From contig JASJCN010000034.1 of assembly GCA_030065975.1 (NCBI GenBank), positions 1-34,110 of the forward strand: a stretch of DNA of 34,110 bases, in the 5' to 3' direction. Under the pieces are notes generated by a model. The model did not search any database. It saw only the letters and a list, made by a program, of their open reading frames with translations, and had not been told where the DNA came from. A program made the position numbers and the translations under genes. The first letter of the stretch is position 1; the number at the start of each line of letters is the position of its first letter. Positions 623-7,297 of this stretch are shown piece by piece. This DNA is from Myxococcota bacterium. Lineage in GTDB: Bacteria > Myxococcota_A > UBA9160 > UBA6930.

Positions 623-1855
623 TCATCGTCGACTCCGCCGCGAGCGGCGCCCGCGAGCGACGGCCACGATCCGCTCGCCGGCCCGTTGCGCACCCGAGAG
701 ATTCCGCGAGACGGGGCCCAGCTCCAGCTCGGCGAGGGCTCCCGTCACGAGGATCCGCGGATGCCAGCGGAGCCCGCGGTCGATGATCGGATAGCCGCAG
801 GTTGCACACGGCAGCTGGAGCTCGGACGCCGCTTCGTCGAGCCAGGCTCCACCTGGCCTTCGAGCCGGGAATCCGGTGGCCAACAGGACCCGGTCCGCCC
901 GGATCCTCTTCCCTGCGAGCTCGAGCGAGACTGCTCTCTCGAGGGGTTGCGCCGATCGGACGTCACGCTCCTCGAGGAGCTCGATCCGACCCTCTCCGAC
1001 GGCCTGACGAAGCTCGGTATGGACGTCGGGCGGCATCGATCCGCGATGCCGCGCCGCACGGATCCGTTCGCGCCGCTCGTCCGGATCGCGGAGCCGGCTG
1101 AAGGCCGCCATGTTCTTCGGCCCCTGCCAGCCCGGGTCGCTGTCGAACTGCTCGATGCGAAGCTCCTGCCGCGAGATCAGGGTCACGCGCCGGCCCTTGC
1201 GAGCGAGCCGAAGGGCGACCTGAGCCCCCGTGATCCCGGCTCCAATCACGGCGATGTCGGCGTCGTTCTCGTCGTCCACGAGCTCGAAGCCCGGGTCGAA
1301 GACGTGGCGGATGCGCGAGGCGGAGTCGGGCTCGGCTGCAGCGGCGACGTCTCGAGCACAGTCGGGCCACGCGGGCTCGCGCGGCGCACCGATCGCGAGG
1401 ATCACGCGCCGCGCCGAGAGCTCCCCATTTGCGCCCTCGTTGCCCCGCTCCTCGAAGCCCACCCGCGCGCACTCGCCCCCGACATCGAGGCGATTCACTC
1501 GCCCCCGGACGTGCAGGCTCTCGAGCCCGTGCCGGGCGATCAGGTCGTCGCAGTGGAGGTCGAAGAGCTCGAGTGCGGGCCGCGAGTAGGGGCGCGTGAA
1601 AGGCTTCCTGACCGTTCGTCCCTTGCCCTTTGCGAAGCGATCGAGCGCCGGCGCGGAGAGGCCGACGTGGTGGACGCTGGGCGACCGCAGGTATCGCATC
1701 CCGGTGTTGCGGGTCGATTGGCGCCATCGCGCCATCAGGTGCGGCGCGTCGTCGAGGATGCGGACGGCTTCGGGCATCACTCCGCCCTCCTCGACGAGGC
1801 GAAGGGCCGCGTGGACCCCGTGCGGTCCCCCTCCGATCACGAGCCACTCGAGCAT
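623..1855 (-). CDS. FAD/NAD(P)-binding oxidoreductase, lysine/ornithine N-monooxygenase-like fold
   Basis: A 410-residue flavoprotein with two dinucleotide-binding sites. The N-terminal FAD motif IGGGPHG (residues 7-13) starts almost at the first residue, and the internal NAD(P) motif VIGAGITGAQVA lies at about 203-214. The ATGF motif near the C-terminus is typical of FAD-dependent N-hydroxylating and Baeyer-Villiger-type monooxygenases and of the related FAD-NAD(P)-binding family. The start at 1855 places the FAD motif in its usual position. An in-frame ATG at 1948 has no ribosome binding site and would add 31 unlike residues. The gene is divergent from the MerC-like gene and precedes the iron-containing dehydrogenase. 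The C-terminus is Arg/Ser-rich. The substrate is unknown, and the choice between monooxygenase and reductase is open. Confidence 0.85.
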   Translation of the reverse strand: MLEWLVIGGGPHGVHAALRLVEEGGVMPEAVRILDDAPHLMARWRQSTRNTGMRYLRSPSVHHVGLSAPALDRFAKGKGRTVRKPFTRPYSRPALELFDLHCDDLIARHGLESLHVRGRVNRLDVGGECARVGFEERGNEGANGELSARRVILAIGAPREPAWPDCARDVAAAAEPDSASRIRHVFDPGFELVDDENDADIAVIGAGITGAQVALRLARKGRRVTLISRQELRIEQFDSDPGWQGPKNMAAFSRLRDPDERRERIRAARHRGSMPPDVHTELRQAVGEGRIELLEERDVRSAQPLERAVSLELAGKRIRADRVLLATGFPARRPGGAWLDEAASELQLPCATCGYPIIDRGLRWHPRILVTGALAELELGPVSRNLSGAQRAGERIVAVARGRRSRRSRR

Positions 1856-2093: not shown

Positions 2094-2516
2094 ATGGAGG
2101 GAACTCGATCGGCCGGGGTCCGGTCCTTCGCGGATGGGATCGGCATCCTGGGATCCGCCACCTGCGCCCTGCACTGCGTGGCGGTTCCGCTCCTTCTCGT
2201 GGCGGGGACGACCCTGCCTGCCTCGTTCGTGACCGACGAACGCTTCCACCACATGCTGCTCTGGGCGATCTTCCCGGCATCCACCGTGGCCTTCGGGCTC
2301 GGCTGCTGGCGCCACAAGGACCGCTGGGTATTCGGGCTGGGACTGCTCGGACTACTGGGCCTCTCATCGTCCGTCGCGTTGCCCCACGAGTGGATCGGGG
2401 AGGCGGGGGAGAGAGTGCTGACCGTCGGATCGGCCGCGATCCTGATCACGGCCCACCTCCGCAACTTCGAGCGATGCCGAGACCACGACTGCGACCACGA
2501 AGCGGTCTCCGGCTGA
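2094..2516 (+). CDS. MerC-like small membrane protein
   Basis: A 140-residue protein with about four hydrophobic segments. It begins with the MerC-family hallmark of an early Cys pair inside the first membrane helix, here ATCALHCVAVPLL at about residues 22-34. MerC proteins carry Hg(II) or related metals across the inner membrane, and many chromosomal MerC-domain proteins have no tested substrate. The C-terminal tail has Cys and His residues (ERCRDHDCDHEA), suggesting a cytoplasmic metal-binding end. The start ATG at 2094 follows GAGAGGAG. No merA, merR or merT is present, so mercury resistance is not implied. The gene converges on the permease gene, whose product is also predicted to move metal. 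I infer a role in zinc, copper or other soft-metal homeostasis. Confidence 0.8.
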   Translation: MEGTRSAGVRSFADGIGILGSATCALHCVAVPLLLVAGTTLPASFVTDERFHHMLLWAIFPASTVAFGLGCWRHKDRWVFGLGLLGLLGLSSSVALPHEWIGEAGERVLTVGSAAILITAHLRNFERCRDHDCDHEAVSG

Positions 2517-2562: not shown

Positions 2563-4332
2563 CTAGCCGTCGCAGTCGGCGCGGCCGTGGTCGTGGTCGT
2601 GCGTGTGCCCCCGGAGGCCGAGTCTGCCGAGGAACTCGCGCGGGCCTTGCCGAAGGATCGAGGCGGCGAGCAGACCGGCGAACGCGATGGCAGCCAGCTG
2701 TCCTTCGAGGCCGGCGTGGGGGGTCGGGTCCGGGCTGGGGACCGGTACGCTCGCGCCTGCGAGGAGGTTCACCATCGCCGCCAGGAGGAGCGTGGCTCCG
2801 AGGAGGATGGCTCCCACCAGTAGCGTGGCGCGTCGGCCATGGAAGGCACGCACGGCCCCGTAGGTGGTGACGTTCGTGGCCGGGCCCACCAACAGGAATG
2901 CGACGACCGCGCCCGCGCTCACGCCCTTTGCGAGAAAGGCCGCGCCCACGGGAGTGGCTGCCGAAGCACAAACGTAGAAGGGCGCCGCAATCGACGCGAA
3001 GAGCGGGATCTCCGCAAGGGTCGGGACGGCCGCGATCCACGCGGGGTCGAGCAGGGGTTCGAGGAGCGCGGCCAACGCGATGCCGGCCACGATCCACGGC
3101 CCGAGCTCGTCCAACGAGTCGACGAACCCGTAGCGGAGCGCGCCGCTCAGGCCTCGCGGCCCGCTCTCCTCGGGAGCGAGGGCACCACTGGCGGGACGGG
3201 GCTCCGGTGCGCGAGTGAGCGCTGCCACCGCAACACCCACGCACAGCGCCAGCACGGCCGCGCAGACGATCCGGATCAGGGTCATCTCCCAGCCCAGCAG
3301 CGGGAGCGAGATGGCTACCGCGTCCACACCGAGCTCGGGCGTCGCGACCAGAAAGGCGGCCGCGGCAGCCGGAGGCAGGCCCTTGTCCATGAGTCCGCGG
3401 TAGAGCGGAACCACGCCGCAGGAACAGATCGGAATGGGCAGGCCGAACACCACGCCGCGCACGGCGCTGCCGAGGGCGGTCTTGCCGCGCATCCATCGGC
3501 TGAGGGTCTGCTGGGGCACCAGGCTCAGGAGACCCGCGCCGAGGAACCCGATCAGGATCGCGGGGCTCGCCTCGACGAAGACCCGCGCGCCCGCTTCGAA
3601 GGATTGAAGCAGCGCCGGGTGGAGGTCGACCGGCAGCAGCGAGAGCAGCCCCATGGCGGCCAGAGCACCCGCTCCGCCCCATCGGCCGTTCGTCGTCTCC
3701 GACCTGGGCCCGTGCTGCACGACGACGTGAAGGAGGCCGCCGGCCAGAAGGGCCTCCACCACGCCTGCACCCGCCACGTGCCCACCGGCCGCGGATAGGA
3801 GGTGCGGGCCGAGGAGGAACCCCGCAGCCGTGGCTGCCATGAGGCCGAGGAGTCCGGCGGAGGCCAGACGTCGTCCAGCGACGGGCGCGAGGGCCGACCA
3901 GACGAAGAGCCCCACCGGAAGCCGATGGGAGACGATCGCCAGGGTGACCCCAAGGGGTTCGGCGGATGACGCCGCGTGGGAGTGGTCTCCCGTCACGGCG
4001 AGTGCAGCGCCATCCACCGCGCAGTGGAACACGAGCCCGGCAACCGCGAGCGAGAGCACGAGCCGAGAAGTCTCGTGCCGCGTGGGCTTCAACGACCGTT
4101 CCGCCAGGCTGGGCAAGAAGAAGCCCAGCAGCGCCACGGGGAAGGCCCACAGGCCGGTGTCCTCGTAGGCATGCGGCAACAAGAAGAGGAGCGACAGCCC
4201 CGCGGTCATCACGAGGACGAACCCGTCCAGAGCGGATCGCAAGGTGGCGCGCCGTTCCAGCAGCGACGCCAGGAGCGGTCCGACGGCGAGGCTCGCGATG
4301 GCGAGAGGTAGGGCGAGGTGGGCGGCGCTCAA
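2563..4332 (-). CDS. ZIP-like domain fused to a CSCG permease (SO_0444/DUF318 type)
   Basis: A 589-residue polytopic membrane protein in two parts. Residues 1-210 look like a ZIP-family metal transporter: helices separated by a short His-containing loop, with HCAVDG (103-108) at the place of the ZIP helix-4 HNxxDG signature and SHRLPVG (135-141) at the helix-5 HExPHE signature. Residues about 240-589 are a permease of the DUF318/SO_0444/ArsP group, with PIPICSCGVVPL (CSC at 303-305), ATPELG and GPATN (483-487). Known members export Cu, Zn or arsenicals. Several ZIP ligands are changed (N to C, E to R, H to V), so the first half may sense or bind rather than import metal. The start is TTG at 4332 without a clear Shine-Dalgarno sequence and is uncertain. 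Confidence 0.85.
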   Translation of the reverse strand: MSAAHLALPLAIASLAVGPLLASLLERRATLRSALDGFVLVMTAGLSLLFLLPHAYEDTGLWAFPVALLGFFLPSLAERSLKPTRHETSRLVLSLAVAGLVFHCAVDGAALAVTGDHSHAASSAEPLGVTLAIVSHRLPVGLFVWSALAPVAGRRLASAGLLGLMAATAAGFLLGPHLLSAAGGHVAGAGVVEALLAGGLLHVVVQHGPRSETTNGRWGGAGALAAMGLLSLLPVDLHPALLQSFEAGARVFVEASPAILIGFLGAGLLSLVPQQTLSRWMRGKTALGSAVRGVVFGLPIPICSCGVVPLYRGLMDKGLPPAAAAAFLVATPELGVDAVAISLPLLGWEMTLIRIVCAAVLALCVGVAVAALTRAPEPRPASGALAPEESGPRGLSGALRYGFVDSLDELGPWIVAGIALAALLEPLLDPAWIAAVPTLAEIPLFASIAAPFYVCASAATPVGAAFLAKGVSAGAVVAFLLVGPATNVTTYGAVRAFHGRRATLLVGAILLGATLLLAAMVNLLAGASVPVPSPDPTPHAGLEGQLAAIAFAGLLAASILRQGPREFLGRLGLRGHTHDHDHGRADCDG

Positions 4333-4415: not shown

Positions 4416-4760
4416 TCAGACCTGCTCCACCGGGCCGTGGTCGTCGCAATGGTCGCCGTGGGCATGGTGCAGGTGGCCGTTCACCAGGTAGTCCACGTGG
4501 TCGCCATGCGGCATGGCTTCGTGCCCACATCCGGGGCCGTGCTCGTGGCCGGCCTCGTGCGAGCCGCACTCGTGGTCGGGCGTGCAGCTCGCCGGGTTCC
4601 TCCCTCCGACCTCCAGACGATGCTCGTCGACGTGGTCCGAGTGGGGGTGATGCAGATGTCCGTCGTGCAGGTAGTCGGTGTGATCCGCGTGTCGTACGGC
4701 GACGTGACCGCACCCTGCTCCGTGGACGTGGTCGTGACCCTTGTGCTGATCGCAGGACAT
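4416..4760 (-). CDS. His-rich, internally duplicated metal-binding protein
   Basis: A 114-residue cytoplasmic-looking protein in which about a quarter of the residues are His, with several Cys and Asp. It consists of two copies of a roughly 37-residue unit. Both units contain H-G-x-G-C-G-H, then D-H-x-D-Y-L-x-x-G-H-L-H-H, then H-x-D-H-x-D-x-H. A Cys/His linker (CTPDHECGSH) joins them. The composition implies binding or buffering of Zn, Ni or Cu. Short proteins with this DHxDYLxxGHxH pattern are known in many bacteria, often misnamed threonine dehydratase. The start at 4760 follows CGGAGGGG at good spacing, and a longer in-frame start at 4874 adds an Arg-rich stretch unlike the rest. It precedes the ZIP-permease fusion, so donor or sink for that transporter is a reasonable inference. 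Confidence 0.85.
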   Translation of the reverse strand: MSCDQHKGHDHVHGAGCGHVAVRHADHTDYLHDGHLHHPHSDHVDEHRLEVGGRNPASCTPDHECGSHEAGHEHGPGCGHEAMPHGDHVDYLVNGHLHHAHGDHCDDHGPVEQV

Positions 4761-4905: not shown

Positions 4906-6270
4906 CTACGCAGTGCGCCGCCTGATCTCTGCGGCGACGAGCCAGAGCCGGTCCTGGCCCCAGACGGCCAGGTCCGCCTCGCCCTCGGGGCCGGACAGCC
5001 GGAAGCTCGGCACACCCCACAGGCCGAGTCCGTCGACCATCTCGTCCTGGTTCCGCTCGACCATGGCCTTCCAGTCGTCGCCGTCGATCACCTTCTGGGC
5101 CTCGGCCCAATCGAGGCCCGCCGCCTCGACGGCCTTCCGCATCCCGGCATCCTTGTGCAGGCCGACACCGAGGGCGAAGGCGTGCCGGAGGAGCGAGCTC
5201 ATCAGGGCCTCGTCCTTCCCCTGCGCCATCGCCCAGGGGAGGAGCGAGTAGGCGCGGCGGGTGGGTGTGCCGATCGGCATCACGAGATTGCCGAAGGCAA
5301 CTCCTTCCGCGTCCGCCTCTCGCTTCGTATCGAAGACGATGTATCGGGCCTTCGGCGGTGGCGCCGGAACGCCGCGCATCACCATCGGCAGGACCGGCTT
5401 GTGGTGGAACTCGATTCCGCACGCATCCTTCAAGGCGATGGTCCGGTCGAACACGATCGACGTGTAGGGCGAGTTCAGGGACGGATAGAAGTCGAGCCGG
5501 AGTCGGCTGGCATCGATGCCGGCGACGTCGGCATCCGGACGCGGCGCGATCAGGGGCGCCTCGGGCTCCTTGCATGCACCCAGCTCGCGCAGGCGGTTCT
5601 CGAGGTGGAAGAGGCGATCGACGCCCCAGTACCACTCCCCCCCGTAGAGGAACATCGCACCGGAGTAGTGCTTGTTCTTGGCGAGCCGGGCGGAGCCTCG
5701 ATCCAACGCCGCGTCCAGCTCGGCGACGCTCGCTCCCTTCTCCGCCAGGCCGGTGAGCGCTCCTTCGTCACCGGACCAGAGCGCTTCGGAGACCGCTGCG
5801 ATGCTTGCGATGCGTTCCTCGTCACTGCTTGCGGCGAGCGCGCGGCCGGCGAGCACCTGATGGCTCGGGTCGGGCACGGTGCCGGACTGCGAAGGGAACG
5901 AGAGGCCGAGATGGGGCGCGATGAGCTCCGCGTCGCGACGCGCCCAGACGGCCAGCTTCTCGAGCTCGGGCTGGCTCGCTCCTCCCGTGGCTCGGATCAG
6001 GTGGACCCGAAGGGTCACGTCGTAGTGCGAAGCGAAGGCCGCGAGCACCTGGGCGGCAAGATGCGAGTAGGGATCGTCCAGCTGGTGGAAGTAGTCGACG
6101 ACGTGGGGCTCGTTCCGACGGCGGCGCTGCGCCTCGGCCTTCTTCCGCCGCGCCTGGATCACGGCCGGGTTCGCCTCCGGGCCCAGGACGCGCCGGCTCG
6201 TGAGCCAGCGCAGCCAGGCCGGCGGGTCGACGAAGAAGCTCGGGTTCGGGTTGTTCTCGGGCTCCAGCAT
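4906..6270 (-). CDS. tandem DsbA-fold protein, 2-hydroxychromene-2-carboxylate isomerase-like
   Basis: A 454-residue protein with two thioredoxin-like DSBA/kappa-GST-type domains. The first (about 55-240) starts with the strand and turn VDYFHQLDDPYSHLAAQ. The second (about 265-450) starts with LDFYPSLNSPYTS and ends with the family's cis-Pro loop GVPSF and WGQDRL. Both carry the DPYS/SPYT type of active-site turn used by HCCA isomerases and kappa GSTs, and neither has the CxxC of oxidoreductive DsbA. This suggests a glutathione-using isomerase or transferase, or a pseudo-oxidoreductase. Single-domain enzymes are about 200 residues, so this is a fused duplication. There is no signal peptide, so it is probably cytoplasmic. 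The start at 6270 has GAGG 8 bases upstream. It stands alone, with 145 bases to the His-rich gene. Confidence 0.85.
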   Translation of the reverse strand: MLEPENNPNPSFFVDPPAWLRWLTSRRVLGPEANPAVIQARRKKAEAQRRRRNEPHVVDYFHQLDDPYSHLAAQVLAAFASHYDVTLRVHLIRATGGASQPELEKLAVWARRDAELIAPHLGLSFPSQSGTVPDPSHQVLAGRALAASSDEERIASIAAVSEALWSGDEGALTGLAEKGASVAELDAALDRGSARLAKNKHYSGAMFLYGGEWYWGVDRLFHLENRLRELGACKEPEAPLIAPRPDADVAGIDASRLRLDFYPSLNSPYTSIVFDRTIALKDACGIEFHHKPVLPMVMRGVPAPPPKARYIVFDTKREADAEGVAFGNLVMPIGTPTRRAYSLLPWAMAQGKDEALMSSLLRHAFALGVGLHKDAGMRKAVEAAGLDWAEAQKVIDGDDWKAMVERNQDEMVDGLGLWGVPSFRLSGPEGEADLAVWGQDRLWLVAAEIRRRTA

Positions 6271-6336: not shown

Positions 6337-7086
6337 CTACGGAGCCGGTGCAGAGCTCAGCCGGACGTCGTCGAAGTCGACCTCGAGGTCCGAGCCGGGG
6401 AACGCGGGGTCGACCTGGTTGAGGTTGACCAGCCGGATGCCGAGGGGCTGTCCCTCGAGCGGCGGGGCCGCCCCGGTCGTGAAGGTCACCACGCTGGTGC
6501 CGAACTCGCCTTCGCCGAGGACGCTCGCAAGCGTGTTGTCGTCCTGGGCCAACACGGTCCCCCCCGCCAGCAGGTCGATCCGATAGCCCGGAAACCCGGC
6601 GAGGTCGAAGAACTGGCCGCTGCTCGAAACGCCCGAGTCGATGTTCCCGACGGCGACGCGCAGCGTGTAGGTGCGGTTCGGCTGCAGGGTCGCGGCCAGG
6701 GTCTGCTGGAAGCCGTACTCACCCTCACCGCCACTGCCGGCAAAGTTGAAGGCGATTCCGACCCGGTCGCCCTGGGGAGCGCCTTCGGGAAAGAAGCTGA
6801 AGACGCCGGGATTCCCGACGGGGTCCGGCTCGACCGGCGTCAGGGTCCCGATGAAGTAGGTCCCACCGGCGCCGCCCCCGGCGATGCCCAGCGGATCGTA
6901 GAGGTCCCAGCCCGAGAGCGGGCCGAAGGTGAACTCGTTGGCCGGGGTCTCGCCAGTGAGGTCCTCGAACCCCGGATTCAGCACGAAGAGCGCCGAGACA
7001 CAGCTCGTGAGGAGCCCGGCTCCGAGGGCGAGGATCAGGGCGAAGGGTGCGGCCAGGCGGTGGTCAGGGCGGGGCAGGCGGGTCAT
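6337..7086 (-). CDS. predicted lipoprotein with a jelly-roll-like domain, function unknown
   Basis: A 249-residue protein with an N-terminal type II signal: a basic start, a hydrophobic stretch and a lipobox ending LLTSC, putting the acylated Cys at about residue 27. The mature part is low in Lys and rich in Gly/Thr. It begins LNPGFEDL, runs through predicted beta strands and ends in DLEVDFDDVRLSS. The opening NPGFED and closing DFDDVRL are common to carbohydrate-binding or choice-of-anchor beta-sandwich domains, so a surface or periplasmic binding role is possible. The start ATG at 7086 follows GGAGGAAG. It is divergent from the propeller gene at 7298, with 211 bases between them. I do not recognise a specific family. 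Confidence 0.75.
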   Translation of the reverse strand: MTRLPRPDHRLAAPFALILALGAGLLTSCVSALFVLNPGFEDLTGETPANEFTFGPLSGWDLYDPLGIAGGGAGGTYFIGTLTPVEPDPVGNPGVFSFFPEGAPQGDRVGIAFNFAGSGGEGEYGFQQTLAATLQPNRTYTLRVAVGNIDSGVSSSGQFFDLAGFPGYRIDLLAGGTVLAQDDNTLASVLGEGEFGTSVVTFTTGAAPPLEGQPLGIRLVNLNQVDPAFPGSDLEVDFDDVRLSSAPAP

Positions 7087-7297
7087 GTGGACTTCCTCCA
7101 GGGGTGGGTCGGGCTCGACCCGGTGCCTGCAGACTAGAGCGGGGCAGCCCCGGGCAATTGAGGAGGACTTGATCGTTCTTTGACGACGCAAGCCGGGCGG
7201 GGACGCTCCGGGCACGAGAGCCCCGCAGGGCGTGCCGCGTCGCGGCAAGGGAACCGCGTCCGCGCCACCGGCCTCTCAGCCGCAGGGGAGGTCCATC
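7087..7297. promoter_or_regulatory. divergent intergenic region
   Basis: 211 bases separating two outward-reading genes for exported proteins. Both ends carry good ribosome binding sites (GGAGGAAG on the minus strand, GGGGAGGT on the plus strand). The central 7145-7195 stretch is less GC-rich than its surroundings and is the likeliest place for the promoters, but I see no convincing -35/-10 pair or operator. Confidence 0.35.

Follow-up and report, generated by a model that had tools for sequence, protein, structure and literature searches.

The window, by which we mean the whole 34,110-nucleotide stretch of Myxococcota DNA analyzed here (contig JASJCN010000034.1), contains on its reverse strand a single intact open frame of 589 residues that has no internal stop and is the only gene of its kind in the window genome. 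The frame joins a ZIP-like domain to an ArsP_1/SO_0444-type permease in one chain. The features of the locus are listed below, with their basis in parentheses.

623–1855, reverse strand: FAD/NAD(P)-binding oxidoreductase (Pfam; homolog neighborhoods)
2094–2516, forward strand: MerC-family protein, convergent with the fusion (PF03203, 5.1e-24)
2563–4332, reverse strand: ZIP-like domain plus ArsP_1/SO_0444-type permease in one chain (589 aa, TTG start)
2566–2610, reverse strand: His-rich C-terminal tail, residues 575–589 (sequence)
2770–3579, reverse strand: permease half, ArsP_1 (PF03773), residues 252–521 (Pfam, 1.5e-39)
3415–3426, reverse strand: CSCG core of the permease half, residues 303–306 (sequence)
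3613–4332, reverse strand: ZIP-like N-terminal half, residues 1–240 (eight predicted TM helices, N-terminus outside)
3910–3930, reverse strand: TM5 motif SHRLPVG, residues 135–141 (BbZIP alignment)
4009–4026, reverse strand: TM4 motif HCAVDG, residues 103–108 (BbZIP alignment)
4416–4760, reverse strand: small His-rich protein, upstream of the fusion on the same strand (homolog search)

A preliminary description of this DNA had proposed one polypeptide made of a ZIP-like half and a permease, with HCAVDG, SHRLPVG and CSCG as its landmarks. The intact frame and the family evidence confirm this, and all three motifs lie at the residues listed. The same domain order, which it had suggested looking for in other genomes, is present in full-length homologs at 73% identity (L002) and at about 35% (L003 and L004), and in another, L129, whose alignment with the window protein spans 589 columns (35% identity, E = 2.7e-71). 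An assembly error or a chance join of two genes is ruled out by these homologs and by the spread of the N-terminal domain (N-domain), which 191 of the 379 genomes sampled from the phylum possess, for the most part in frames some 590–720 amino acids long. Within the class, the N-domain is found in 8/91 genomes fused to the permease or as fragments of that fusion, and in one genome in a stand-alone form. Homologs of the fusion also carry His-rich tails. A sequence search of genome contigs returned distant Paenibacillus permeases and nothing closer, and a plasmid search gave one match, to a permease alone.

The N-terminal half of the window protein does not match Zip in Pfam because its sequence is too divergent, and its assignment comes by way of its homologs. 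Five of seven homologous N-domains match PF02535 (best 3.1e-7), and Zip and ArsP_1 are found together in seven of ten full-length homologs from the wider phylum. In L129, for example, Zip scores 43.0 bits (curated cut-off 35.1) and ArsP_1 reaches 4.7e-34 in the same chain. In an HH profile comparison, the N-domain profile aligned over 202 columns with a profile of ordinary ZIPs (probability 96.6%, E = 5.5e-10), the latter built from seven ZIPs of the same order as the window genome that themselves match BbZIP (5TSA) at 7.5e-22. TM4 and TM5, which lie in the region that the preliminary description had wanted compared with ZIP transporters, are in register between the two profiles. We therefore read the N-terminal half, by homology, as a probable divergent ZIP domain. 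A chance likeness to ZIPs, or an unrelated domain that accompanies permeases, would fit the missing Pfam match and the outcome of single-sequence AlphaFold, which produced no usable model (pLDDT 43.7 for the full protein, 48.5 for the N-terminal half); Foldseek found no ZIP with the low-confidence N-half model. Searches against PDB sequences gave weak photosystem PsaK matches alone with phmmer and none with the N-domain profile. Such a reading is highly improbable in view of the L129 score above the curated cut-off, the weaker Zip matches of several other homologs, the profile comparison and the full conservation of the metal-site residues described next.

Upon alignment with BbZIP, His103, Asp107 and His136 fall on the M1 positions H177, E181 and Q207, and Cys104, Arg137 and Val140 on the M2 positions N178, D208 and E211. 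The M1 ligands are kept in 67/67 aligned N-domains (position 107 is Asp in 58 and Glu in 9), and His103, Gly108, His136, Pro53 and Gly198 are invariant, with some bias in this invariance because the members were collected with the N-domain profile. Farther along the chain, His202 is kept in 64/67 and His206 in 63/67. At TM7 the window protein has Gln206 and His207, which align with H275/E276 of BbZIP in a register that takes the LLHV motif as its anchor and may be shifted by one position. A seven-sequence alignment had suggested His207 as the invariant TM7 histidine; we rejected it, as the 67-sequence alignment puts the conserved histidine at 206, which is glutamine in the window. The tree places the window protein in a clade of 24 sequences (support 1.0), 22 of which have Arg137; five members retain Glu140, the usual ZIP ligand.

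The preliminary description had thus placed correctly the replacement of ligands by Cys, Arg and Val. Its further suggestion, that the domain had become a sensor or an otherwise altered module, finds no support in these residues. M1 is kept, only M2 is lost, and Arg137 takes the place of Lys203 in human ZIP2, and so transport need not have been lost along with the replaced residues. Human ZIP1 and ZIP2 (subfamily II) also lack M2 and have a lysine at that position (Lys218 and Lys203, respectively; PMC9530640), where the window has an arginine; M2 therefore does not define the ZIP family. ZIP2 transports metal by way of His175, Glu179, His202 and Glu276 and requires Lys203 for its full rate, and its K203R mutant loses about 72% of transport (PMC6527156). 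In ZIP4, the loss caused by taking M2 away is only about 30% (PMC9530640). Given the invariance of the M1 residues, we rejected the idea of a degenerate relic; the residue pattern looks like that of an M1-only ZIP rather than a dead one.

The predicted topology agrees with this assignment. Averaged over the 67 members, lysines and arginines number 2.1–2.9 per loop in loops 1–2, 3–4, 5–6 and 7–8 and 0.15–0.28 in loops 2–3, 4–5 and 6–7. Hydropathy, helix count and positive-inside charges fit a ZIP half of eight TM helices with both termini outside. With eight predicted helices, an outside N-terminus, the TM4 HxxxD/E motif and the TM5 histidine of M1, the domain resembles BbZIP and the ZIP/SLC39 family (PF02535), and differs from that family in being fused to a second permease. 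The first helix of the permease half (251–270) is followed by a basic stretch, LVPQQTLSRWMRGK, as in stand-alone permeases, and therefore the two halves could join in the periplasm with neither one inverted.

The permease half belongs to ArsP_1 and resembles SO_0444 while falling short of the equivalog threshold: it scores 136.4 bits against the ArsP_1 profile (curated cut-off 32.3), 190.5 bits against the SO_0444 equivalog NF033936 (cut-off 300) and 99.8 bits against SaoE, NF040736 (cut-off 325). Of its earlier description as a DUF318/SO_0444-type permease, the ArsP_1 profile and the CSCG core uphold the broader type, whereas the SO_0444 cut-off is not reached. The likeness to the SO_0444 Cu/Zn efflux transporter comprises the ArsP_1 profile over residues 252–521, the CSCG core and the His-rich tail; the difference lies in the lower score and the N-terminal ZIP domain. 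When zinc or copper is in excess, growth depends on SO_0444 (PMC3219624); Cd/Cu induces a relative (PMC10092412).

These phenotypes raise the possibility that the fusion, too, exports zinc or copper in the manner of SO_0444, with a ZIP half that would act as a membrane-embedded metal sensor, loading or gating domain and hand metal from M1 to the CSCG permease. The intact CSCG core, ArsP_1 profile and His-rich tail of the window protein agree with it. The fully conserved M1 triad speaks against it, as the loss of M2 is compatible with active ZIPs, and so do the scores below the SO_0444 and SaoE cut-offs. The variants of the family count against it as well, in that many fusions lose the permease core and keep the ZIP half. 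Only 38 of 62 complete frames examined retain the CxC[G/S] core. In the fused frames L112 and L119 the permease half is degenerate and has no CxCG core, yet every M1 residue of the ZIP half is present. Stand-alone ZIP-like N-domains of about 205–235 amino acids also occur (L110:4709–5407, reverse; L111:5608–6306, forward; and L032); around the L110 and L111 copies, no permease gene was found within about 5 kb. The tree scatters degenerate-permease and stand-alone forms among the fused ones. Because M1 is kept in 67/67 N-domains versus 38/62 for the permease core, it is the ZIP half that stays constant across the family. The gene neighborhoods described below bear on the exporter reading from both sides, and overall we regard it as somewhat unlikely.

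The two families also meet unfused: in L074 (G020), an ordinary ZIP gene adjoins a fragment of an SO_0444-type permease.

The genes around the fusion have relatives in zinc-limitation clusters. In Paraburkholderia, the genes around a homolog of the small His-rich protein include ZnuABC, ZigA, a Fur-family gene and HflK/HflC; HflK/HflC paralogs are members of the P. aeruginosa Zur regulon (PMC9431628). The FAD protein, too, has homologs in such settings: in Halorubrum within a ZnuABC cluster, in Metabacillus next to a GTP-binding (CobW-type) protein. One genome, G040, has the window's set of fusion, His-rich, MerC and FAD genes and, adjoining the FAD gene, a CobW_C protein. Compared with Zur-type zinc-limitation clusters (ZnuABC, ZigA/CobW, HflK/HflC, His-rich), the fusion loci share the His-rich, FAD, MerC, CobW and Fur-family genes; the window differs in that its contig lacks ZnuABC and no regulator or recognizable Zur box lies beside the gene. 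Next to the zinc cluster of the window, a reverse-strand frame at 4906–6270 has a DsbA-like domain (PF01323) in its C-terminal half and a similar-looking N-terminal half, and the reverse-strand frame at 6337–7095 encodes a protein that has an HpiC1-like domain (PF22825, 1.2e-58) and begins like a lipoprotein.

In 9/66 loci across the phylum, the fusion has a Fur-family gene close by, against an expectation of about 0.13 that assumes about two such genes per genome (Poisson P about 3e-14). These neighbors are plausibly Zur, which in some species controls ZupT, a ZIP (PMC6103462). The clearest case is the complete genome G210, in which genes on one strand encode ZnuA and, after 13 bp, the fusion, followed by an ordinary ZIP, a Fur-family protein, MerC and CobW. 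No znuB or znuC is found within 19 kb of this operon; ABC-3 genes are present elsewhere in the genome. Two near-identical 19-bp sites, GATAAYGCACTYSCRTTAT, precede znuA-fusion and merC-cobW (L170), and the next best matches in the 8 Mb have three mismatches. The pattern was derived from these two sites, so that only their likeness to each other counts as evidence; we consider them a candidate Fur/Zur-type operator. This shared site was seen in G210 only, and no Zur-like palindrome was found upstream of the fusion in the window, L002 or L017.

The setting of the fusion amid zinc-homeostasis genes, most clearly in a zinc-uptake operon, suggests that it contributes to zinc acquisition and is not simply an exporter. 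It also makes doubtful the earlier contrast of an importer half with an exporter half, since the neighborhoods hold zinc-limitation functions and the C-terminal half scores below the SO_0444 cut-off. The ZnuA/ZIP/CobW operon of G210 is a further point against the exporter reading. That reading draws support from other loci: in L118 the fusion directly follows a CDF exporter gene, and ArsR/SmtB-type regulators occur at L115, L118, L125 and L136.

A different fusion of an SO_0444/ArsP_1-type permease occurs in G001, of the same genus (L071:6733–13500), where the permease is fused to an SPFH/Band_7 (HflK-like) domain. Two SPFH genes and a ZnuA gene come next, with 4-nt overlaps, and then ZnuC- and ZnuB-like frames. 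L072 is arranged similarly. Here too an SO_0444-type fusion is linked to zinc uptake.

We also compared the complement of zinc-transport genes. The window genome has three CDF exporters and no match to ZnuA, an ABC-3 permease or an ordinary ZIP, absences that are weak evidence because the genome is 85.5% complete. In G040 and G059, likewise, no ABC-3 permease or ordinary ZIP was matched. Within the class, ABC-3 permeases at E<1e-20 occur in 0/8 fusion genomes versus 41/83 others (one-sided Fisher P 0.006), a correlation that ignores kinship, as four of the eight belong to one genus. In genera g1 and g27, the fusion and ABC-3 swap within the genus; in G210, G160 and G096, both are present.

Taken together, these observations lead us to propose, with a probability of about one half, that the fusion is a transporter for zinc homeostasis that most likely works in uptake and whose conserved metal path is the ZIP half. 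In this model, it would be an inner-membrane protein of two complete modules: a divergent ZIP of eight TM helices, N-terminus out, with a single M1 site (His103, Asp107, His136) and Arg137 at M2, and an ArsP_1/SO_0444-type permease that has the CSCG core and ends in a His-rich tail. Zinc would take the M1 route through the ZIP half, serving acquisition or re-balancing, and the permease half may be an accessory or a second metal path. We favor the uptake side because of the ZnuA, ZIP, Fur and CobW context, the lack of ZnuA, ABC-3 and ZIP matches in the window genome, and the ABC-3 correlation in the class. Several observations weigh against it. The phenotype of SO_0444 and the induction of its relative point to metal excess, and efflux-type neighbors stand near some fusions, namely the CDF gene in L118 and the ArsR/SmtB-type regulators in the four loci named. 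Moreover, fusion and ABC-3 permeases coexist in three genomes, most fusion loci in the phylum have no detected zinc-gene neighbor, and no Zur-like palindrome lies upstream in the window.

The occurrence of both uptake-type and efflux-type neighbors across the phylum would also fit a protein whose two halves both transport, carrying different metals or working in opposite directions, for exchange or metal balance (for example, zinc in and copper out). The core residues are intact in both modules of the window protein and the topology is compatible with such a scheme. If the halves shared a substrate, however, a futile cycle would result, and we consider this arrangement unlikely.

Building on the uptake reading, the order znuA-fusion-zip-Fur-merC-cobW in G210, with no znuB or znuC nearby, allows a bolder proposal, which we hold to be unlikely: an ATPase-free zinc uptake machine, in which a ZnuA-type protein would hand zinc to the ZIP-permease chain and which would have replaced ZnuABC and ordinary ZIPs in part of the phylum.

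The ZIP and ArsP_1 domains are each already known; their fusion appears to be new as far as we found, and no published description of it turned up in the literature searched, which covered a subset of papers. ZIPs and SO_0444/ArsP_1 permeases are regarded as separate transporters that act in opposite directions. A fusion that is widespread, keeps its ZIP metal site invariant and has Fur-family neighbors and, in one complete genome, ZnuA and CobW beside it would instead place both families in one zinc pathway. It makes the role of SO_0444-type permeases testable and may offer a natural M1-only ZIP for studies of mechanism. Should the ATPase-free uptake machine prove true, SO_0444-type permeases could serve in zinc acquisition.
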